From Nitrosomonas eutropha (GTDB lineage: Bacteria; Pseudomonadota; Gammaproteobacteria; Burkholderiales; Nitrosomonadaceae), in NCBI GenBank assembly GCA_014584635.1, contig JACTML010000032.1, forward strand, positions 1 through 16,715: a stretch of DNA of 16,715 nucleotides, given 5' to 3'. A program made the translations under genes and the position numbers. The notes under the pieces are model-generated. The model had not been told where the DNA came from. It saw only the letters and a list, made by a program, of their open reading frames with translations, and ran no database searches. Shown piece after piece: positions 4,853-16,286 of the stretch (within the stretch, counting starts at the first letter, position 1; each line of letters opens with the position of its first letter).

Positions 4853-6244
4853 ATGAAGACAAAATCGAATTCCATGGTGGCATTAATTGTCGCAGTAGTA
4901 TTGATTTCTCTCTCTGTTACGGTACAAGCAGATAAGCCTTTAGAAAAAAATAACAATAACAGCATTACCGTCCTGCAAACAAAACCGTATCAGGCACAAT
5001 CTCGTAATCAGCAGGATGATCTGTGGGCACGTGTGCGAACCGGATTTTCCCTGACGAGCACTCAGAGCCGCGAAATCCAGCATCACGAAAATAACTTCAG
5101 TAAAAGCCAGCAGTTTATCGATCGCATCGTTGAGCGCAGTCAGCGTTATCTGTTTTACATCATGGAAGAAGTAGAGCGGCGTCACATGCCGGCCGAAATT
5201 GCACTGCTGCCGATTGTCGAAAGCGCTTTTGATCCGGAAGCCTACTCACACAGGCATGCAGCAGGGTTATGGCAATTTGTGCCTTCAACTGCAAAAGCAT
5301 TTGGACTGGAACAAAACTGGTGGCATGACGAACGGCGTGACATCATTGCGGCTACGCAGGCTGCGCTGGATTATCTGCAGATGCTCCACAAAATGTTTGG
5401 TAACTGGAAACTGGCACTGGCCGCATACAACTGGGGCCAGGGATCGCTGAAAAAGGCAATTGACGAAAACCACGGTGGAAATAAATCAATCAGTTATCGA
5501 CATATCAATCTTCCCGCCGAGACCAGAAATTACGTTTCCAAGCTGATTGCCATCAGGAATATTATTGCCCATCCCCGCCGTTACGGTATCCGGCTGAAAC
5601 CCATCCCGAACCGGCCTTATTTCGAACAGATTACCATTACCCAGCAGATCGATGTTCAGCTGGCTGCCAGGCTGGCTGGAATTTCGGAAAATGAATTCAA
5701 CGCACTGAACCCGGCGTATCACCGGCCGGTTATCAGAGGGGAAGAATCTCCACGTACCTTGCTGCTGCCTGCTGCCAAAATCAAGACGTTTGTAGATAAT
5801 CTGGAGAGTTACGACAAGGTACTGGTTTCATGGCGTGTCTATCAGATACAGTCAGCCGATACTTTGCAGAGTTTATCCAGCCGGTACCGTATTTCTGTTG
5901 CCAAACTGGCTGAGATCAATGGTATTTCCGCGCGGGCAGCCCTGAAAAAAGGACAGACATTGCTTGTGCCGCGTGATGGTAACGGCATCAGGGAGAGAAC
6001 CTATCTGGCATACAACAACCTGCTCAAGACATCAGCGGGTCTTCCGGCATCGGCCAGATCGCCCAGAACCGAGCACCTTGTCTATATCGTCAGGAAAGGG
6101 GATACGCTGCAGGCGATTGCCAGACGTTACGGGATTGATATTAATAGCGTCCGCTCATCCAACAAAGGAAGTGATCGACTTTCCATCGGGCAGAAACTGA
6201 CGCTCAAGCTGGCTGTCCCCTTCAACAGGCCTTATTCCTCCTGA
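4853..6244 (+). CDS. mltD: Membrane-bound lytic murein transglycosylase D-like protein with two LysM domains
   Basis: This 463-aa periplasmic enzyme should cleave the MurNAc-GlcNAc bond of peptidoglycan with 1,6-anhydro ring formation. Residues 1-26 form a signal sequence (hydrophobic MVALIVAVVLISLSV, cut after VQA). The SLT/GH23 domain spans about 105-215, with catalytic Glu123 in LPIVESAFDP, then the hallmark AAGLWQFVPSTAKAFGL and LALAAYNWGQG. Two peptidoglycan-binding LysM repeats lie near 328-372 and 411-454 (VRKGDTLQAIARRYG). E. coli MltD is a lipoprotein; here the signal sequence has no lipobox cysteine, so the protein is probably soluble or held by its signal anchor. The ribosome site is poor (AGGATG abuts the start), and Met8 is a possible alternative start. 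The last 13 bp overlap the end of the convergent carboxylase gene. Confidence 0.92.
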   Translation: MKTKSNSMVALIVAVVLISLSVTVQADKPLEKNNNNSITVLQTKPYQAQSRNQQDDLWARVRTGFSLTSTQSREIQHHENNFSKSQQFIDRIVERSQRYLFYIMEEVERRHMPAEIALLPIVESAFDPEAYSHRHAAGLWQFVPSTAKAFGLEQNWWHDERRDIIAATQAALDYLQMLHKMFGNWKLALAAYNWGQGSLKKAIDENHGGNKSISYRHINLPAETRNYVSKLIAIRNIIAHPRRYGIRLKPIPNRPYFEQITITQQIDVQLAARLAGISENEFNALNPAYHRPVIRGEESPRTLLLPAAKIKTFVDNLESYDKVLVSWRVYQIQSADTLQSLSSRYRISVAKLAEINGISARAALKKGQTLLVPRDGNGIRERTYLAYNNLLKTSAGLPASARSPRTEHLVYIVRKGDTLQAIARRYGIDINSVRSSNKGSDRLSIGQKLTLKLAVPFNRPYSS

Positions 6245-9200
6245 ACAATCAGCAGTAGCTGGCCGGAACATACGTAATCTCCCTGTTTGCAGCTGATTTG
6301 CTGCACAACCCCGCTGACAGGCGCGCTCAGGGTGATTTCCATTTTCATGGATTCAATGATAATAACCGGATCCCCGGTACTAACTGTCTGTCTGGTTTCA
6401 ATCAATAGTCGCCATACAGTACCGGTTACATCCGAACTGACGGCATGCGCGCCATCTGGCAGGCTGATTTCATTTTTGGCGCAAGCATAATCAAGCATAT
6501 CTTCGTCATTACTCTGCTGTACACCTTCTCTCTGCCAGCGTTCGCGTTCGGCTTCAAATGCTTGTTGCTGCCGGGATTTGAATGCCCTGATACTGTCTGC
6601 GTGCTGCTGCAAAAATGCCTGATAGGTGCGCAGACTGAAGATGGTCTCTTCCGTGCGCAGTGTGAAACGCCCTGTAATAAAATCCTGGCGTAATTCCAGC
6701 AGTTCGCGCTCTGAAACGGGATAAAAGCGGATCTGGTCGAAAAAACGCAACAGCCATGGCTTGCCGGCAACAAAGTCGCGTGTCTGACGATAACGGTTCC
6801 ACATTTGTACCGTTCGTCCGACAAATTGATAGCCGCCCGGGCCTTCCATGCCGTAAATACAAAGATACGCTCCGCCAATTCCCACGGCATTTTCCGGTGT
6901 CCAGGTGCGTGCAGGATTGTATTTGGTGGTAACGAGGCGATGGCGAGGATCAACCGGTGTGGCAACGGGTGCACCCAGATAAACATCTCCCAGTCCCATC
7001 ACCAGGTAGCTGGCATCAAAAACAATACGTTTGACGGCTTCAATATTTTCCAGCCCGTTCATGCGGCGAATAAATTCAATGTTGCTTGGACACCAAGGCG
7101 CATCCGACCGGACCGATTGCATGTACTTTTCGATTGCCAGCCGTGTGGCAGCGTCATCCCAGGAGAGAGGGAGGTGGACAATACGCGAAGGAATTTCCAT
7201 ATCATCGATAGCCGGCAAATCCTGTTCGGCGGCGATGAGCCGGTTCAATAACCGGTCGCGTGCCAGCAGTCGTGAATCGTAATGGATCTGCAAAGAACGA
7301 ATACCGGGGGTAATATCAAGAATTCCAGGCAAATCTTTCTGGTCGATACGCTGCTGTAACCAGGTCATCAGGGCGTGCGCGCGAAAATGCAGTGCAATAT
7401 CGAGTATCGGTTCGCCGTATTCAATCAGCAGATATTTGTCTCCTGACTGTCGATATACCACCTGCACCTGCCCGTTATCGGCCGGGATCCGGTGTAATAC
7501 CGGGTTTCCTCGCCCGGTCGGAAGTGCTGGAATATCCGCTGCTGCACGTGTGAAGATATCCGGCTCGCGGATCATTTTATCCTGCTGCTGTTCCAGCAGG
7601 AGCGCGTGTTCGGTGGTGAGCGGATAAAAACGTACGCTGTCGCCCGGTTTGAGCTGACCTGTCTTCCATAGTTCTGCCTGGGCGATTACGGCCGGGCAGA
7701 CGAAGCCACCCAGACTGGGGCCATCCGGACCCAGGATGATAGGCATATCACCAGTAAAATCTATTGTGCCGACTGCATAAGCATTGTCATGAATATTGGA
7801 GGGATGCAGTCCGGCTTCTCCGCCATCCTTGCGTGCCCATTGCGGTTTGGGACCAATCAAGCGCACGCCGGTGCGGCTGGAGTTATGGTGCACCTTCCAG
7901 TCAGTTGCGAAAAATGTATCAATATCGTCTTCAGTAAAGAAATCCGGTGCACCGTGCGGGCCATATAACACGCCTATTTCCCACTGATGGGTGTAATGCG
8001 GGATACATTCGGCTGGCAGTGTTCCGGTTGCCGTTTCCCTGGCAGGCAAAATACGCAACACATCGCCGGCACGCAGTGCGCGTCCGGCATGTCCACCGAA
8101 TTGTCCCAATGTAAAGGTGGATTTACTGCCTAGATAATCCGGCACCTGAATCCCGCCCTGAACCGCGAAGTAGGCGCGACTGCCAGACTGCTGAATTTTG
8201 CCGAATCGCAGTAGCGCGCCTGCCGGAATAAAATGAGATCGCCATTGCTCCAGCGACTTATCATCCAGCCAAATGTCAATTGGTGCGCCACATACAGCAA
8301 TGAGAGCGTTACAGTTGAATCGTAGCGTGGGTCCGGACAAGGTAATCTCCAGTCCAGCTGCTTCATCCGGATTACCAGCCAGTCGATTGGCCAGACGAAA
8401 CGCCAGGCTGTCCATCGGTCCGGAAGGCGGCACACCCACATTCCAGTAACCTGTTCTGCCCGGATAATCCTGTACGGTTGTCTGCACACCGGCGTTGAGC
8501 ACATCCAGAGAAGAGGGTTGATAATAGAATCCGGCAAGGTATTTCGTATTAACCTGTCCGCTACGGAATACCATGCCGGACAATACCTGTTTGAGATAAT
8601 CCAGATTGGTTTCAATGCCGTAGAGCGTGGTTTGATTCAGCGCGGCAATCAGATGGTCGATTGCCTGATCGCGATCGGCCGCATGCACGATAATTTTGGC
8701 CAGCATCGGGTCGTAAAAAGCGGAGACTTCGCATCCTGCATCCACCCAGGTTTCAATCCGTGCAGTTGCCGGAAAATCAACTGCACTCAGCAAGCCACTG
8801 GAGGGCTGAAAATTTTTTGCAGGATTTTCCGCGTACACACGCGCCTGAATGGCAGCACCTTGTGGCTGAATAGTGAATGATGCCAGCGATGGCAATGCAT
8901 CAGCGCCCAGCAGAACCATCCACTCGACCAGATCAATACCGGTCGCCATTTCAGTTACCCCATGCTCCACTTGCAGCCGGGTGTTGACTTCCAGAAAATA
9001 AAACCGGTCAGCTTCCGCGTCATACACATATTCCACTGTGCCGGCGGACCGGTACTGCACTGATTTCATCAGACGTACCGCCGTTTCCTGCAGTGCTGTA
9101 CGAGTTGATGAAGACAAACCGGGGGCCGGTGTTTCTTCAATAACCTTCTGATTACGCCGCTGCATGGAGCAATCACGTTCCCCCAGCGCAATTACATTTC

Positions 9201-9852
9201 CCCGGCCGTCACCGAATATCTGCACTTCAATGTGGCGCGCCTGATCGATGTATTTTTCCAGGAACAGACCAGCATTGCTGAAATTGCTTTGTGCCAGATT
9301 CCTGACAGATTCGTAGGCATCCAGCAGTTCCTGCTGGTCACGGCATAAACGCATGCCGATTCCACCTCCTCCTGCTGTACTTTTCAGCATAACCGGATAG
9401 CCGATCCGGTGAGCTTCCTGACAGGCTGTTTCGATATTGTCGAGTAATCCGGTACCTGGCAGCATGGGAACATCAAGCTGTCGGGCAAGCGTCCGGGCAG
9501 TGTGCTTCAGGCCAAAAGTGCGTATCTGCTCAGGTGAGGGGCCCAGAAAACAAATTCCCTGTGCCGTGCATTGCTCGGCAAACCAGGCGTTTTCACTTAA
9601 AAATCCGTATCCTGGATGGATTGCCTGGGCACCTGTCTGCCGTGCAGCTTCCAGTATTTTGTCAGGACACAGATAGCTTTCGCTGGCGAGCCCATCACCG
9701 ATACAGATACTTGCATCGGCGTCCAGCACATGACGTGATAACGCATCGGCCTTCGTAAAAACAGCCACACTTTCGATTTTCATTCGACGTAACGTGCGCA
9801 TAATGCGGCAAGCGATAGCGCCACGATTGGCAATCAGAATTTTTGTAAACAT
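6232..9852 (-). CDS. Full-length biotin-dependent urea/guanidine carboxylase, probably guanidine carboxylase
   Basis: This 1206-aa enzyme carboxylates its substrate using ATP and bicarbonate. I start it at Met (9850-9852), 12 codons inside the longest frame, because AGGAGAA lies just upstream. Domains in order: biotin carboxylase (about 1-450: KILIANRGAIACRI, ATP-grasp loop GGGG at 161-164, EVNTRLQVEH from Glu288); KipA/AHS2-like carboxyltransferase half (from GVQTTVQDYPGR at 455); KipI/AHS1-like half (from about 785); and biotin carrier with ESMKME, the biotinyl Lys being 1170. Length and order match urea carboxylases. Carboxylases in guanidine-I riboswitch operons with DUF1989 partners are known to prefer guanidine, giving carboxyguanidine. 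Its leader carries such a riboswitch, so I favour guanidine; substrate cannot be proved from sequence alone. No allophanate hydrolase is fused. Confidence 0.93.
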   Translation of the reverse strand: MFTKILIANRGAIACRIMRTLRRMKIESVAVFTKADALSRHVLDADASICIGDGLASESYLCPDKILEAARQTGAQAIHPGYGFLSENAWFAEQCTAQGICFLGPSPEQIRTFGLKHTARTLARQLDVPMLPGTGLLDNIETACQEAHRIGYPVMLKSTAGGGGIGMRLCRDQQELLDAYESVRNLAQSNFSNAGLFLEKYIDQARHIEVQIFGDGRGNVIALGERDCSMQRRNQKVIEETPAPGLSSSTRTALQETAVRLMKSVQYRSAGTVEYVYDAEADRFYFLEVNTRLQVEHGVTEMATGIDLVEWMVLLGADALPSLASFTIQPQGAAIQARVYAENPAKNFQPSSGLLSAVDFPATARIETWVDAGCEVSAFYDPMLAKIIVHAADRDQAIDHLIAALNQTTLYGIETNLDYLKQVLSGMVFRSGQVNTKYLAGFYYQPSSLDVLNAGVQTTVQDYPGRTGYWNVGVPPSGPMDSLAFRLANRLAGNPDEAAGLEITLSGPTLRFNCNALIAVCGAPIDIWLDDKSLEQWRSHFIPAGALLRFGKIQQSGSRAYFAVQGGIQVPDYLGSKSTFTLGQFGGHAGRALRAGDVLRILPARETATGTLPAECIPHYTHQWEIGVLYGPHGAPDFFTEDDIDTFFATDWKVHHNSSRTGVRLIGPKPQWARKDGGEAGLHPSNIHDNAYAVGTIDFTGDMPIILGPDGPSLGGFVCPAVIAQAELWKTGQLKPGDSVRFYPLTTEHALLLEQQQDKMIREPDIFTRAAADIPALPTGRGNPVLHRIPADNGQVQVVYRQSGDKYLLIEYGEPILDIALHFRAHALMTWLQQRIDQKDLPGILDITPGIRSLQIHYDSRLLARDRLLNRLIAAEQDLPAIDDMEIPSRIVHLPLSWDDAATRLAIEKYMQSVRSDAPWCPSNIEFIRRMNGLENIEAVKRIVFDASYLVMGLGDVYLGAPVATPVDPRHRLVTTKYNPARTWTPENAVGIGGAYLCIYGMEGPGGYQFVGRTVQMWNRYRQTRDFVAGKPWLLRFFDQIRFYPVSERELLELRQDFITGRFTLRTEETIFSLRTYQAFLQQHADSIRAFKSRQQQAFEAERERWQREGVQQSNDEDMLDYACAKNEISLPDGAHAVSSDVTGTVWRLLIETRQTVSTGDPVIIIESMKMEITLSAPVSGVVQQISCKQGDYVCSGQLLLIVQEE

Positions 9853-10086
9853 GAGTTCTCCTACTGCCGGTTCCGTATAGTTAAACAAAAACAGTTTTGA
9901 GATCAGTTCTCAGGAAAATGCATAATGGCCGGTTAAAAACCTTTGGCTGTCTGACGAACAGGTATGAAAAGAAGCAAGAGATGTGGAGCGGGACTGGAGG
10001 AAAAGGTAAAAAAGCAGGAAACACGCATAATCAATCTCCGGGAAATCAGGGAATCTGTTGCAATAATACATATGACATTACGCACG
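9853..10086 (-). other. Leader between the leftward riboswitch and the carboxylase start
   Basis: About 235 nt separate the aptamer from the carboxylase ATG on the minus strand. It ends with a good ribosome site. It contains T-rich runs (GCTTTTTTACC on the minus strand) that could belong to a terminator, but I could not find a strong stem before them. I also found no segment complementary to the aptamer like the one in the rightward arm. The expression platform is therefore unresolved. Short plus-strand ORFs here look spurious. Confidence 0.4.
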
Positions 10087-10328
10087 CTAATCTCCCGGGC
10101 TTTTGTCCCTCCGTGGAGCTTCAATGATGCTGAAGCCTCAGGCTCTCGGACCAGTCATTTTCTGTTAGGGAACCCCTGTAAAACTATCTGCGTTGCTATT
10201 TCTGCGTTAAAAATCGGCTCAAAATGCTCATTTATTACGTATAAATTCCGCTCTCTCGCCGATTTTTGCCTTGAACTGACTGCCTCGCTAACGTTTTGCA
10301 GAGGTTCCGCAGAAAACCGGAACCCTAG
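10087..10328 (-). ncRNA. Guanidine-I (ykkC) riboswitch, aptamer interrupted by a MITE-like insertion
   Basis: Read on the minus strand, the aptamer starts with CTAGGGTTCCGG (10328-10317). It resumes with CTGGTCCGAGAG (10153-10142), followed by a P2 hairpin GCTTCA/TGAAGC, and ends with CCACGGAGGGACAAAAG and CCCGGGAGA. These are the conserved blocks of guanidine-I riboswitches; the block GGGAYAAAAGCCCGGGAGA has C at the Y position. The first block and the rest are about 150 nt further apart than normal. Removing the 140-bp element at 10169-10308 leaves TTTTCTG (10316-10310) and CAGAAAA (10164-10158) as the two strands of an ordinary hairpin. It probably controls the carboxylase to its left. Confidence 0.9.
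10169..10308. mobile_element. 140-bp MITE-like element inside the leftward riboswitch
   Basis: Terminal inverted repeats are GGAACCCCTGTAAAAC (10169-10184) and GTTTTGCAGAGGTTCC (10293-10308): 16 bp with two mismatches, one of which becomes a G-U pair in RNA. A second perfect 10-bp inverted repeat AAAAATCGGC/GCCGATTTTT lies inside (10209-10218 and 10258-10267). It has no coding capacity, so any transposition would need a transposase in trans. I see no clear target-site duplication. The sequence resembles dispersed repeats I remember from Nitrosomonas-like genomes, but this was not checked. Confidence 0.75.
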
Positions 10329-10335
10329 CCTGAAG

Positions 10336-10394
10336 TAATTGCAACCAGCCGGCGGCGCAATGAATGGTAATACCTGCCTTGCTCGTTGCAATTA
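10336..10394. repeat. 10-bp inverted repeat upstream of the leftward riboswitch
   Basis: TAATTGCAAC (10336-10345) and GTTGCAATTA (10385-10394) are perfect inverted copies with a 39-bp gap. They lie just upstream of the leftward aptamer, where its promoter is expected. They could be an operator or simply a hairpin. I found no convincing -35/-10 pair on the minus strand; TATATT at 10401-10396 is the best -10 candidate. Confidence 0.4.
10379..10389 (-). repeat. Shared 11-mer GCAACGAGCAA, leftward copy
   Basis: GCAACGAGCAA on the minus strand, about 50 nt before the leftward aptamer. The identical word occurs on the plus strand at 10601-10611, about 30 nt before the rightward aptamer. Same orientation relative to both riboswitches suggests duplicated leaders or a shared site. 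Confidence 0.45.
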
Positions 10395-10527
10395 AAATAT
10401 AACTCAAGGGTAACGAATCTTTACCGGAATCACAATATTTCTTTTAATTTCCTGTAAAAATAGATAAATAGAGGGTATTTGTATCGAACCATCTAATCGT
10501 TTTTTACTGAAGCGCGTAATATTTTCC
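10395..10527. other. AT-rich spacer between the two leaders
   Basis: This AT-rich stretch separates the divergent transcription units and presumably contains upstream promoter elements for both. A leftward ORF of 71 codons (10404-10619, TTG start) crosses it but has no ribosome site or recognisable motif, so I do not call it. Confidence 0.4.
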
Positions 10528-10557
10528 TTGTGTTTCAAAAAAATCAATGTATATAAT
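10528..10557 (+). promoter_or_regulatory. Putative promoter of the rightward guanidine operon
   Basis: A perfect -10 TATAAT (10552-10557) follows TTGTGT (10528-10533) after an 18-bp spacer. Predicted start near 10564 leaves about 75 nt of leader before the riboswitch aptamer. The -35 is weak (TTG conserved only). Confidence 0.55.
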
Positions 10558-10600
10558 AAAACCATACTTTGGTTGTAGTAATTGCGTTCAGTAAGATCTC

Positions 10601-10611
10601 GCAACGAGCAA
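10601..10611 (+). repeat. Shared 11-mer GCAACGAGCAA, rightward copy
   Basis: Second copy of the word described at 10379-10389, here within the predicted transcribed leader ahead of the rightward aptamer. Confidence 0.45.
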
Positions 10612-10640
10612 ACTATCAAAAGTATCGCTGTTTTACGAAA

Positions 10641-10733
10641 CTAGGGTTCCGGCTATTCTAATGCAATAGCGCCTGGTCCGAGAGTTTCGGGCTCTGCTGC
10701 AAGAGCTCCACGGAGGGATAAAAGCCCGGGAGG
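10641..10733 (+). ncRNA. Guanidine-I (ykkC) riboswitch of the rightward operon
   Basis: Contains all conserved blocks in order: CTAGGGTTCCGG (10641-10652), a hairpin CTATT/AATAG, CTGGTCCGAGAG (10673-10684), a P2 hairpin GGGCTC/GAGCTC (10689-10694 and 10703-10708), and CACGGAGGGATAAAAG followed by CCCGGGAGG. The terminal GGGATAAAAGCCCGGG block is diagnostic of the guanidine-sensing class, which turns genes on when guanidine binds. Genes downstream (permease, deiminase pair, carboxylase-like protein) fit this class. Confidence 0.95.
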
Positions 10734-10769
10734 TTATGTTAAATACATGAACTTCCGGAGCCCGAAATG
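10685..10769 (+). promoter_or_regulatory. Probable riboswitch expression platform sequestering a ribosome site
   Basis: TTTCGGGCTC (10685-10694), part of aptamer helix P2, is perfectly complementary over 10 nt to GAGCCCGAAA (10758-10767). The latter overlaps a ribosome site (GGAG, 10757-10760) and the A of the ATG at 10767-10769. The two pairings exclude each other. Ligand-stabilised P2 would free the ribosome site, giving guanidine-on translation. This is inferred from complementarity only. Confidence 0.6.
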
Positions 10770-10964
10770 GAAAGTACAGCTCATCCGCATACCGCCATCT
10801 CAAACCTGTTCCTGTCAGCTGCTGATCGTTATCCGGCAGGCAATGTTGTTCTGTGTTGTATCAGTTATTCCGGTTTAACCATCTTCAGATTATGGGTTAT
10901 CGCACCCATTCATGCTTTCCCGGTAGTCAATCGTGCAGTTTTTGTTGACACATACCATCCCTGA
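10767..10964 (+). CDS. Possible small protein or leader ORF (65 aa) under riboswitch control
   Basis: ATG 10767 has a well-spaced GGAG (10757-10760) that falls within the predicted riboswitch switch helix. The ORF encodes 65 residues and stops 19 bp before the permease ATG. I do not recognise the protein. Its middle (VVLCCISYSGLTIF then RLWVIAP) is fairly hydrophobic and could be one membrane segment. It may be a true small protein, a translated leader coupling the riboswitch to permease translation, or a chance frame. The well-placed ribosome site supports translation; lack of recognisable family argues for caution. Confidence 0.3.
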   Translation: MESTAHPHTAISNLFLSAADRYPAGNVVLCCISYSGLTIFRLWVIAPIHAFPVVNRAVFVDTYHP

Positions 10965-10983
10965 TTTCCAAGAGAGAAACGAT

Positions 10984-12468
10984 ATGCCAACAATAAAAGA
11001 AAGCGACTTGTTCCCGGCAGTAAATAATGAACGAATTGATGAGGCTGAATCAGAACGTAAAAGTACCAATGAGGCAGGGCAGCTTTGTCGCAGCATGAGT
11101 GTCTGGAATTGCTGCACACTGGGATTCTCGGTGGTATCGCCGGTTGTGGGGTTGTATGCCATTTTTGGCGTTGAAAACCAGGTGACAGGGGGAGGATGGA
11201 TTGCTGCACTGATTTTATGTCTGTTCATGCAGCTGATGGTGGCCACTGTCTATGCTGAGCTTTCATCACAATTTCCCATTGCCGGTGGCGCTTACAAATG
11301 GTCTCGTCATTTAATCGGACCCAGAACCGGCCAGTATGCCGGAATCATTTATGTCAGCTCGGTCATTGCCATGCTGACTACCACCGCTTATACGGGAGGA
11401 ATGTGGCTTTCTGCAGTCATTGTGGGAGGAGATACGCAAGGTGCTTCAGCTGTTATCTGGGGAGGGGTATTTCTGCTGATTTGCACGCTGGTGAATATCG
11501 TCAGTCAGAGGGCTTACAAAATCATCAACCTGCTCGGTGTCAGTGCGGAAGTGCTGGGTTCGATATGTGTTGCACTGATTCTGTTTTTCTTCTTTCGCAT
11601 TTATCCGGTTTCCGAGCTGTTTGAGCATCTGGGAACCGGGCTTGCGCCCACCAATGTGACGGCTTTTCTGGCAGCACTGGCTATTGCAGGCTGGGCATTT
11701 ATCGGATTTGATTCCTGTTCTACTATTGCTGAAGAAGCACACAACCCTGAACGGGTTATCCCGCGTGCGATTTTTTTGTCACTGCTGGCAGTAGGCAGTG
11801 TCGTACTGTTCAATTCTTCCGCGCTGATGTTGTCAGTCAGCCATACTACACTGATCGAAGCCAGCGCCACTTCTGATCCCATTTCCCCGATTATTGCCGG
11901 AACAATCGGGACATGGGCCGCCAAGCCGTTTCTGGTGATTGTCATGACAGCCTTTCTTTCCTGCGGATCATCCGTGGTGAACTATGCCTCGCGTATTGTT
12001 TTTTCAATGGCGCGCGAGGGCAATCTTCCGTCCTTTTTTGCGCGTGTTACCAGAAAAACGCAGCTGCCGCGCAATGCAATTATTGGAACCGTGCTGATGG
12101 CTGGCCTTGGCCTGCTGTTCGGGCTGAATGATGGTGCCGTGGCAACAATTATCGCTTTTGGAACCGGAGGGCTGTACGCCATGTTTTCCATGACAACAGG
12201 TGTGGGTTTGTATGCGCGGCTTACGGGCCGGTGGAATCCGGCTCTGGGCGCACTGCGACTGGGAAGATGGGGATTGGTAATCAATATCGTGGCTTTCGTC
12301 TGGGCATTGTTTGAGCTGATCAATATCGGCTGGCCACGCGACTATATCGCTGCTCCGGGAGCAAGCTGGTGGCAGCTTTGGGCTGTGCCGCTCGTGCTTG
12401 GTGTCATACTGGTTCTGACAACGCTGCACGTGCAGATGGGGCATAGACGCGCAATAAAAAAGTTTTAA
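10984..12468 (+). CDS. APC-superfamily permease, probably imports guanidine or a related compound
   Basis: This 494-aa inner-membrane transporter belongs to the amino acid-polyamine-organocation superfamily. ATG 10984 is chosen over an upstream GTG (10933) because of the purine-rich AGAGAGAAA just before it. A hydrophilic N-terminus of about 35 residues is followed by about 12 membrane segments, starting with GFSVVSPVVGLYAIFGV and WIAALILCLFMQLMVATVYAEL and ending with LWAVPLVLGVILVLTTL. The early segment GFSVVSPVVG and the region after the second helix, SSQFPIAGGAYKWS, are typical of the family. It is the first large gene behind the guanidine-I riboswitch and precedes the deiminase pair by 67 bp, so guanidine uptake is the likely role. 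The family also carries amino acids, choline and GABA, so the substrate is inferred from context only. Confidence 0.85.
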   Translation: MPTIKESDLFPAVNNERIDEAESERKSTNEAGQLCRSMSVWNCCTLGFSVVSPVVGLYAIFGVENQVTGGGWIAALILCLFMQLMVATVYAELSSQFPIAGGAYKWSRHLIGPRTGQYAGIIYVSSVIAMLTTTAYTGGMWLSAVIVGGDTQGASAVIWGGVFLLICTLVNIVSQRAYKIINLLGVSAEVLGSICVALILFFFFRIYPVSELFEHLGTGLAPTNVTAFLAALAIAGWAFIGFDSCSTIAEEAHNPERVIPRAIFLSLLAVGSVVLFNSSALMLSVSHTTLIEASATSDPISPIIAGTIGTWAAKPFLVIVMTAFLSCGSSVVNYASRIVFSMAREGNLPSFFARVTRKTQLPRNAIIGTVLMAGLGLLFGLNDGAVATIIAFGTGGLYAMFSMTTGVGLYARLTGRWNPALGALRLGRWGLVINIVAFVWALFELINIGWPRDYIAAPGASWWQLWAVPLVLGVILVLTTLHVQMGHRRAIKKF

Positions 12469-13926: not shown

Positions 13927-13982
13927 CAGCGGCCAGATCCAACCCCATTCTGAACCAGACACCACCGAGTATGGAGAACAAA

Positions 13983-16286
13983 ATGTCCGATAAAGCATTA
14001 ATTGAAGTTGTCACGCCGGGAGTACAAACCACTGTTCAGGATTACCCCGGGAGGCAGGGTTACTGGAATGTGGGTGTGCCGCCTTCCGGACCGATGGATA
14101 GTCTGGCATTCAGACTGGCTAATCGTCTGGCAGGAAATGAAGAAGGACTGGCTGCCATTGAAATCACGTTTGCGGGACCGACGCTGTATTTTCACTGCGA
14201 TGCTGTTATCGCGGTAACCGGCGCACCTGTCGAGGTAATCTTAAATGGGAAACCGCTGGCACAGTGGACATCCCACAAAATCAAGGCAGGCGCTTATCTT
14301 GTTTTTGGTGATGTGCTGGATCAGGGAAGCCGGGTTTATCTGGCAGTGCAGGGAGGGATTGATGTTCCAGACTATCTGGGGAGCAAATCCACTTTTATGC
14401 TGGGCCAGTTTGGCGGGCATGAGGGCCGTACCCTCCAGGCAGGCGATAAGTTAAACATTGCGACGAGCGCTCTCGCGGAATATGTTCCGCGTGAGTTGTC
14501 GTCAGCAGTCGTACCGCAATATACGCATCACTGGAAAATTGCAGTGCTGTATGGCCCGCATGGTGCGCCGGATTTTTTTACAGAAAAAAGTGTTACAGAC
14601 TTTTTTGCGGCTGAGTGGACAGTGCACCATAACTCGGATCGTACTGGCGTGCGTTTGCTTGGTCCCAAACCGCAGTGGGCGCGCACGGACGGTGGGGAAG
14701 CCGGGCTGCATCCTTCCAATGTGCACGATGTGCCTTATTCCATTGGCGCAGTGGATTTTACCGGTGATTTACCGGTTATCCTGGGGCCAGATGGCCCTAG
14801 CCTGGGCGGATTTGTCTGTCTGGTAACGTTGGCTTACGCCGAGCAGTGGAAAATGGGACAGCTTCGTCCGGGTGATCGCATTACCTTTCATCGTATTTCT
14901 GCAGACGAAGCGGCAACGCTGGAAGCTGCTCAGGATAATCTCATTCGGACATTGCAGCCTGTCGCAGTAGCGCCGGCAGCGGCACATACGCCTGTGGCAA
15001 TAGATACTCCGGTTTTGCATACCATTCCTGAAAAGGGTGAGCAGGTGCAAGTTGTTTACCGGCAGGCAGGAGACAAAAATCTGCTGGTGGAATATGGCCC
15101 GATGACGCTTGATTTCAATCTGCGTTTTCGTATTCACGCGCTGATGGAATGGTTGCAGCAGGCTGTAAACGAGAAGGATCTACCTGGAATCGTAGATTTA
15201 ACTCCTGGTATCCGCTCGCTGCATATCCGTTTTGATTCCAGAATGTTATCGCGCGATAAACTGGTAGATACGCTGCTGCTGGCAGAAAAAGAACTGCCTT
15301 CTGTGGAAAACATGGAAGTAGCCTCACGTATTGTGCATTTACCCCTCTCCTGGAATGATCCATCCGTTCAGTTGGCGATGAAGAAATATATGCAGTCTGT
15401 ACGCAAGGATGCGCCATGGAATCCGGATAATATCGAATTTATTCGCCGTATCAACGGGTTGGATAGTATCGATGAGGTCAGGCATATTGTTTTCAATGCG
15501 AGCTATATGGTGATGGGACTGGGAGATGTTTACCTGGGCGCACCGCTGGGCACTCCTGTTGATCCCAGGCATCGTCTGGTCACTACCAAATATAATCCGG
15601 CACGCACTTGGACACCGGAAAATGCCGTGGGAATTGGTGGTGCCTATATGTGTGTATACGGGATGGAAAGCCCGGGCGGCTATCAGCTCGTGGGGCGTAC
15701 CATACAAATGTGGAACAGCCATATACAAACACATGATTTCAAGGAAGGTAAACCGTGGTTGCTGCGTTTTTTCGATCAGGTGCGCTTCTATCCTGTGACG
15801 GAGGCGGAGCTGACCAGGCTGCGCAAAGATTTTCCAAATGGAAATTTCACTCTGCGTATTGAAGAAGAACGCTTTAACCTCAAGCAATACAACAATTTTT
15901 TAAAAGAGCATGCTGCATCGATTGCAGCTTTTAAAACAAAGCAAAAAGCTGCTTTTATTGCAGAACGTGAACGCTGGAAAGCAGAAGGACAGGAAAATTA
16001 TACAACCGCTGAAATCCTGGAAAATGATGCAACACCCGGTAACATCACCATTTCTGCAGGCATGCGTGCGATAAGCACACACCTGACCGGTGTCATCTGG
16101 AAATTGCTGGCGAGTGAAGGGCAGCATGTAAATGCGGGAGACAACCTGGCTGTGTTGGAGTCCATGAAAATGGAGTTTGTGATCCGGGCACCTGTCAATG
16201 GTGTGATCCAGCAAGTACTTTGTAAAGCGGGAAGCAAAGTTTCAGCGAAACAGATACTGTTCCTGATCAGGGAAGAAGGCGAGTAA
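13983..16286 (+). CDS. Carboxylase paralogue with carboxyltransferase and biotin carrier but no biotin carboxylase domain
   Basis: This 767-aa protein is a close paralogue of the C-terminal two-thirds of the carboxylase encoded leftward. ATG 13983 is chosen because GGAG (13973-13976) is correctly spaced from it; ATG 13971 has none. Domains: KipA/AHS2 half (from about residue 13, GVQTTVQDYPGR), KipI/AHS1 half (from about 344), and biotin carrier ending with ESMKMEF, biotinyl Lys729. It aligns with the full-length enzyme almost without gaps: Gly13 matches Gly455 and Lys729 matches Lys1170. The roughly 440-residue biotin carboxylase part is absent, with only 45 bp between the preceding stop and the first candidate ATG, so no remnant exists. 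It has a sound ribosome site and an intact frame, so it is probably functional. It could take carboxybiotin from a biotin carboxylase acting in trans, perhaps the divergent enzyme. Confidence 0.9.
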   Translation: MSDKALIEVVTPGVQTTVQDYPGRQGYWNVGVPPSGPMDSLAFRLANRLAGNEEGLAAIEITFAGPTLYFHCDAVIAVTGAPVEVILNGKPLAQWTSHKIKAGAYLVFGDVLDQGSRVYLAVQGGIDVPDYLGSKSTFMLGQFGGHEGRTLQAGDKLNIATSALAEYVPRELSSAVVPQYTHHWKIAVLYGPHGAPDFFTEKSVTDFFAAEWTVHHNSDRTGVRLLGPKPQWARTDGGEAGLHPSNVHDVPYSIGAVDFTGDLPVILGPDGPSLGGFVCLVTLAYAEQWKMGQLRPGDRITFHRISADEAATLEAAQDNLIRTLQPVAVAPAAAHTPVAIDTPVLHTIPEKGEQVQVVYRQAGDKNLLVEYGPMTLDFNLRFRIHALMEWLQQAVNEKDLPGIVDLTPGIRSLHIRFDSRMLSRDKLVDTLLLAEKELPSVENMEVASRIVHLPLSWNDPSVQLAMKKYMQSVRKDAPWNPDNIEFIRRINGLDSIDEVRHIVFNASYMVMGLGDVYLGAPLGTPVDPRHRLVTTKYNPARTWTPENAVGIGGAYMCVYGMESPGGYQLVGRTIQMWNSHIQTHDFKEGKPWLLRFFDQVRFYPVTEAELTRLRKDFPNGNFTLRIEEERFNLKQYNNFLKEHAASIAAFKTKQKAAFIAERERWKAEGQENYTTAEILENDATPGNITISAGMRAISTHLTGVIWKLLASEGQHVNAGDNLAVLESMKMEFVIRAPVNGVIQQVLCKAGSKVSAKQILFLIREEGE

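Follow-up and report, generated by a model that had tools for sequence, protein, structure and literature searches.

A guanidine-I riboswitch whose conserved blocks stand apart on either side of a mobile element raises the question of whether an aptamer can take a transposon into one of its hairpin loops and still work. We examined such a case in the ammonia oxidiser Nitrosomonas eutropha, in a window (the whole stretch of DNA analysed, 16,715 nucleotides) that is one contig of a 1.68-Mb MAG, 80% complete and in 230 contigs. The window holds two divergent operons, each with a guanidine-I riboswitch upstream. The minus-strand operon encodes a carboxylase that scores above the urea-carboxylase family cut-off and is 82-86% identical to those of three same-genus Nitrosomonas relatives, with a dN/dS of 0.06-0.07 and a synonymous divergence of 1.1-1.5 against three relatives. 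The plus-strand operon comprises a permease-like gene, whose best family match falls below the family cut-off, UAAP1, UAAP2 and the C-terminal half of a carboxylase (13971-16286, 771 aa), which is without a biotin-carboxylase domain and has the guanidine-type Asp. Both window carboxylases have Asp at the position of K. lactis Asn1330 and keep Asp1584 (from an alignment, with positions counted by eye), the pair given as the guanidine carboxylase signature in the available portion of PMC11410670. The riboswitch is thus associated with guanidine genes, through the signature residues of its carboxylase and through the permease-like and UAAP1/UAAP2 family genes of the divergent operon. The two riboswitches (10630-10734, plus strand; 10340-10090, minus strand) lie ~290 bp apart, and a divergent guanidine-I pair on one contig also occurs in genomes G001, G017, G036 and G038.

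Judged by its sequence, the minus strand from 10340 to 10090 is one guanidine-I aptamer with a 140-bp MITE (10308-10169) in the loop of its P1b hairpin (Table 1). That the aptamer is split by an element had been proposed in the initial annotation and is borne out by R2, our own covariance model, which matches the uncut RNA over the full interval at 93.2 bits. The 24 aptamers behind R2 comprise 21 members of the genus and three outsiders (L044, L058 and L078); naturally long-armed members were included and both window aptamers were left out. With default filters, the match covers all 116 positions, skips 144 nt in the P1b loop, contains no non-standard pairs and places helices P1, P1a, P1b, P2 and P3 and the conserved blocks in order. 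Nine other R2 matches in the same search scored 95.6-112.6 bits; because six of them had trained the model, the fair comparison is with the three that had not (95.6, 101.2 and 106.2 bits). The coordinates first assigned were also right, with the element at 10308-10169 on the minus strand (140 nt), block 1 starting from 10328 and the remaining aptamer running from 10154 to 10090. The aptamer blocks, described earlier as intact, indeed are: all 42 positions invariant among the 24 aptamers are kept, as are 12 of the 13 nearly invariant ones, the single departure being half of a compensated P2 pair.

Table 1 Features of the split riboswitch and its surroundings in the window
Feature	Position	Strand	Basis
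Guanidine carboxylase, intact	6232..9852	-	Family search, alignment; D at the K. lactis 1330 position and at 1584
Short leader ORF, 31 aa, GGAG upstream	9933..10028	-	Similarly placed short ORF in six orthologues
ATTTCCCG, complementary to aptamer 3' end CGGGAGAT, candidate expression-platform partner	10039..10046	-	Complementarity by eye
P3 and aptamer 3' end, CCACGGAGGGACAAAAGCCCGGGAGAT	10090..10116	-	R2
P2 hairpin, with compensatory pair specific to the window (G-C to A-U)	10117..10137	-	Covariation
Conserved block CTGGTCCGAGAG	10143..10154	-	Orthologues, R2
P1b 3' strand CAGAAAATGA	10155..10164	-	Folding, orthologues, R2
Likely right target-duplication copy CTAA	10165..10168	-	Family alignment
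140-bp MITE, terminal repeats GGAACCTCTGCAAAAC / GTTTTACAGGGGTTCC	10169..10308	-	39 own-genome matches, best other copy 94%
Element left end CGGAACC, complementary to core GGTTCCG, predicted transient decoy	10303..10309	-	Prefix folding
P1b 5' strand GTTTTCTGC, holding likely left target-duplication copy CTGC (10312-10309)	10309..10317	-	Alignment
Core block 1, CTAGGGTTCCG	10318..10328	-	Same sequence in six orthologues
P1 outer stem, 5' strand (partner 10143-10138)	10328..10333	-	Folding, alignment, R2
Second guanidine-I riboswitch, uninterrupted, before the divergent permease operon	10630..10734	+	Rfam 90.5 bits; internal control

The Rfam model RF00442 scores the split aptamer at 56.6 bits (10189-10090, minus strand), below its gathering cut-off of 63, and places it in a false register in which the right end of the element, CAGGGGTTCCC, is taken as block 1 and the outer-stem pairs are broken. 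With filters off, R2 returned this false register at 62.9 bits and not the full match, and the multi-genome R2 scans likewise gave the false register for the window aptamer. We considered whether the right terminal repeat could be a genuine alternative to block 1 and rejected this, as the outer-stem pairs break and R2 scores that register at 62.9 versus 93.2 bits. Because the element end (10189-10169) mimics a guanidine-I block (GGGGTTCCC), covariance scans report a plausible false aptamer start. Under a model of the 3' half, the split copy scores 76.9 bits and the intact copy 76.6, both being in the training set of that model.

The split aptamer shares with the RF00442 class (guanidine-I, ykkC subtype 1) the conserved blocks, the P1/P1a/P1b/P2/P3 architecture and a guanidine carboxylase downstream. 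It differs in its P1b interval, which spans 163 nt after CTAGGGTTCCG, compared with 16-59 nt in 48 other aptamers measured, because a mobile element has inserted there. The 48 are those that matched our search motifs; among the unmatched L037, L045, L055, L079, L080 and L066, no insert of comparable size is seen. Long P1b or P2 arms, up to ~60 nt, occur in other Nitrosomonas aptamers (L062 501-669, L066 501-667, L064 and L065). The 59-nt P1b arm of L062 was considered as another insertion and set aside, its sequence occurring once in the L062 genome.

The insert itself, called MITE-like in the initial annotation, has terminal inverted repeats, many copies and no coding capacity. Some of its 39 own-genome matches are parts of one copy, in a genome that is incomplete, and 59 of the 101 genomes searched, its own counted, contain matches. 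Sites resembling the terminal repeat with at most two mismatches number 65 in the own genome versus 5 for a reversed control; by eye, their spacing in that genome suggests that the family's terminal-repeat pairs bound other lengths too (~50-200 bp). One ORF of at least 80 aa lies over the element (9964-10338, plus strand); it spans the flanks as well, and we take it as chance. Terminal inverted repeats, a target duplication, many copies and a lack of coding capacity are features in common with bacterial MITEs as portrayed in the part of PMC10969869 at hand. Matches to IS5-type transposases were found in all five genomes searched (over the cut-off in three), and none of the 30 loci examined had paired ends matching the element; the attempt to trace a parent IS through such transposases was dropped. 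A search of a plasmid collection gave two distant matches, without an annotated feature, and was set aside.

Family members duplicate a 4-bp target. Among 19 aligned copies, 15 from the own genome and 4 from relatives, all four flanking bases agree in 7, versus 0 at an offset control, and the exact sites read TTAA, TTAG, CTAA or TAAA. The copy in P1b is flanked by CTGC (10312-10309) and CTAA (10168-10165), with two of four bases in agreement. Because the flanks read this way, we infer the duplication at this copy from the family, and CTGC and CTAA are likely best read as its two copies. The original loop was most likely GGTTTTCTAACAGAAAATGA, an empty P1b of 20 nt if CTAA is the target, as long as in N. 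europaea and G021. In the TTTTCTG/CAGAAAA stem that the initial annotation saw restored by excision, the last pairs would come partly from the duplicated target. Reading the two target-copy differences as adaptation leads to no conclusion, since one favours P1b and the other a decoy hairpin described below.

The same carboxylase leader is found without the element in six relatives, and block 1 is identical in all of them. The sequence and these element-free relatives together establish the insertion: the aptamer is a genuine guanidine-I one, and the element has entered it at a permissive site. In an alignment of seven related sequences, with the window row joined without the element, standard pairs fill 95.4% of the pair cells, a figure inflated by kinship (mean of 500 shuffles, 93.7; 0/500 as high). 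Three pairs are changed on both sides (as many in 6/500 shuffles), two of them in the window only, C-G to U-A in P1b and G-C to A-U in P2; these compensatory changes carry no date relative to the insertion. Further pair types, one of five covariation measures, do not rise above the shuffles (430/500).

Could the interrupted RNA still adopt the aptamer fold? Folding the full leader had been suggested as a check, and the uncut RNA is predicted to form the aptamer plus a long arm into which P1b extends. Equilibrium folding gives -90.8 kcal/mol, with probabilities of 0.99-1.00 for P1 and 1.00 for the CC-GG core pairs, and places 49 pairs inside the element. The mean P1 probability is 0.998 in the natural RNA versus 0.997 in the element-free form, and that of the two CC-GG core pairs is 0.997 versus 0.996; P1b is firmer with the element (0.83 versus 0.56 without), its distal pairs gaining. 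When the folded stretch is extended by 40 nt on its upstream side and by the leader as far as the ATG, P1 stays at 0.86-0.99. Read off the sequence, 15 of the 16 terminal-repeat positions pair, one of them as G-U, in agreement with the initial annotation, and the leader fold predicts the first ten of these pairs at 0.95-1.0. The folding z-score is -5.3 for a 261-nt stretch. When the insert was shuffled (n = 200), 81% of the sequences held P1 at 0.9 or above, 56% held the CC-GG pairs and 12 equalled the natural RNA on all three measures. A random insert would thus often spare P1 too, and the inverted repeats therefore help but are not essential. The GG-CC core pairs (0.14) and G22-C (0.00) are unpredicted in the natural and joined forms alike, so that the folding program is no judge of these pairs and does not confirm the core as a whole.

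The position of the insert within the aptamer is consistent with tolerance. In the PRPP aptamer, a relative introduced with the words 'Like its parent aptamer', P1, P1a, P1b and P2 are stacked coaxially as a single unit and the loop of P3 docks into P1a, according to the sections of PMC6031431 available to us. P1b would accordingly sit at the outward tip of this unit, remote from where P3 docks into P1a. Given this location and a naturally variable length, the insertion appears to lengthen an expendable arm.

One point is missing from the initial annotation, a decoy between the left end of the element and the core. The core GGUUCCG is followed 8 nt later by CGGAACC, the first C of which falls inside the target-duplication copy, and the two form 7 pairs at -11.2 kcal/mol. 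In prefixes taken every 10 nt, the mean probability of the decoy is 0.98-1.00 at 40-90 and 130-160 nt and 0.49-0.90 at 100-120 nt; it is 0.88 at 170 nt and, while the terminal repeats pair up, drops to 0.17 (180 nt) and then 0 (190 nt). The probability of P1 rises to 0.49 in the 200-nt prefix and 1.00 at 210. The profile describes equilibrium folding of growing prefixes, not kinetics. Favoured in most prefixes of 40-170 nt, the predicted decoy could trap the RNA: if strand exchange is slow, the core would stay trapped, and if it is fast, the aptamer would have formed before the expression platform is made. It is also conceivable, though we think it quite unlikely, that the element acts as a functional kinetic component of the switch, with a left end that masks the ligand-binding core from the moment it is transcribed and a right end that unmasks the core ~140 nt later; if so, the riboswitch would have gained a built-in delay from a mobile element. 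Given the near-palindromic sequence of the element, a family insertion into the P1b loop should mask and release in a similar way in either orientation.

Downstream of the aptamer, the motif ATTTYCCG, whose complement is found in the 3' end of the aptamer, precedes a short ORF in six of seven leaders (by eye), with N. europaea reading ATTTCCTG; a role for it in the expression platform is a guess. The window and six orthologues each have a GGAG and a short ORF that begins 60-63 nt past the aptamer (in G012 the script called a GTG, with an ATG two bases before), and this ORF, at a nearly fixed distance, is possibly part of the expression platform. Between 9800 and 11000, one sigma-70-like site was found, on the plus strand, where 2.2 are expected by chance; the same interval gave no minus-strand promoter-like site (simple consensus, one promoter type) and no terminator-like site (simple consensus). 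A stem of A-tract and U-tract in the element might, judging from the sequence, give partial termination or RNase III cleavage.

Taken together, we favour the explanation that the MITE lengthened an expendable P1b arm, that the decoy forms and then clears, and that guanidine control persists, which we regard as likely. The element would have entered the terminal loop of P1b, in the leader of the guanidine carboxylase gene, by transposition at a 4-nt target that was probably CTAA. During transcription, its left end is predicted to pair first with the core as the decoy hairpin; once the right end emerges, the terminal repeats would pair and free the core, and P1b and then P1 would close, leaving an ordinary aptamer that bears a long arm in which ~49 pairs lie within the element. 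The expression platform being retained, guanidine would most likely still activate the gene, perhaps less efficiently or with its response shifted. The arm-bearing switch probably still folds, and we consider retention of aptamer function likely rather than proven.

Age bears directly on the chief rival, a freshly broken riboswitch in which decoy trapping or termination within the element has abolished control and which looks intact only through youth. The element differs from the consensus of its family in 7 columns out of 141, a total that counts the target columns on either flank, and set against the carboxylase synonymous divergence of 1.1-1.5, the insertion looks much younger than the species split. 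At a divergence roughly estimated as 3.6-5%, 2-3 neutral changes are predicted among 55 conserved positions, and one, compensated, is seen. Because the insertion looks recent, an aptamer free of decay argues weakly for function; the earlier argument that intact blocks speak against decay was correct about the blocks and weak as an argument. A broken switch also accords with a decoy that is favoured until the right end is made, and with a split form confined to one genome of those scanned, a single MAG. Against it, P1 and the CC-GG core pairs persist in the fold predicted at equilibrium, no pairs are broken under R2, and the target copies differ at two of four bases, few as four are, while all 42 invariant aptamer positions are kept. 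We therefore hold a broken switch to be possible but unlikely. Outward-facing promoters can occur in mobile elements, and RNase III can act on long MITE hairpins; with this general precedent, the element might instead bring its own promoter or alter RNA processing, making carboxylase expression independent of the riboswitch. The sole sigma-70-like site in 9800-11000 lies on the plus strand, a result that concerns one promoter type and is silent on processing, and we judge this account improbable. An assembly artefact joining unrelated sequences through the repeated element, for which a 230-contig MAG with 39 element matches offers some opening, is very hard to credit, because the flanks are halves of one aptamer that pair in P1 and P1b and match one orthologous leader in order, and random joining would not restore them.

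Rfam gave 100 guanidine-I matches in 149 genomes and 31 in 274 genomes of the class, with only the window copy below the cut-off, and R2 gave 58 in 398 genomes of the phylum and 83 in 399 of the order; the genome sets overlap, and under the strict filters other split switches could be missed. Within the genus, the 3'-half model found 85 matches versus 83 by Rfam, the extra two at contig ends. No second split riboswitch was recognised in the genomes searched by these scans, which could miss some. Among the outliers inspected, three matches abut a contig end, those of G845 and G070 with their last position and that of G002 with its first, and neither G852 nor G611 has a large insert as judged by eye; all were rejected as split switches.

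Two known systems come close. In the trp leader of S. pneumoniae, a BOX element is likewise a short mobile repeat transcribed within a riboswitch leader that is thought still to work; as far as the accessible text of PMC3049150 goes, the repeat there lies between two T-box aptamers thought largely independent in folding, whereas here it lies inside the hairpin of one aptamer. Palindromic elements of 105-146 bp have inserted, possibly neutrally, into the structured tmRNA and RNase P RNA genes of Rickettsia, as outlined in the available part of PMC2229807; the host RNA in that case is not a ligand-sensing switch, and the likeness is one of description. In the open-licence literature, covered mostly as titles and abstract beginnings, we recognised no description of a mobile element inside a riboswitch aptamer.

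A practical consequence is that a standard Rfam scan can misread an aptamer split by a MITE. If the switch still works, it would be a transposon inside a ligand-binding RNA and would show, as a natural experiment, how much stretching a riboswitch aptamer can bear, with built-in controls in the element-free leaders of close relatives and in the second, intact switch ~290 bp away. Inverted-repeat elements of this kind could supply new RNA arms.
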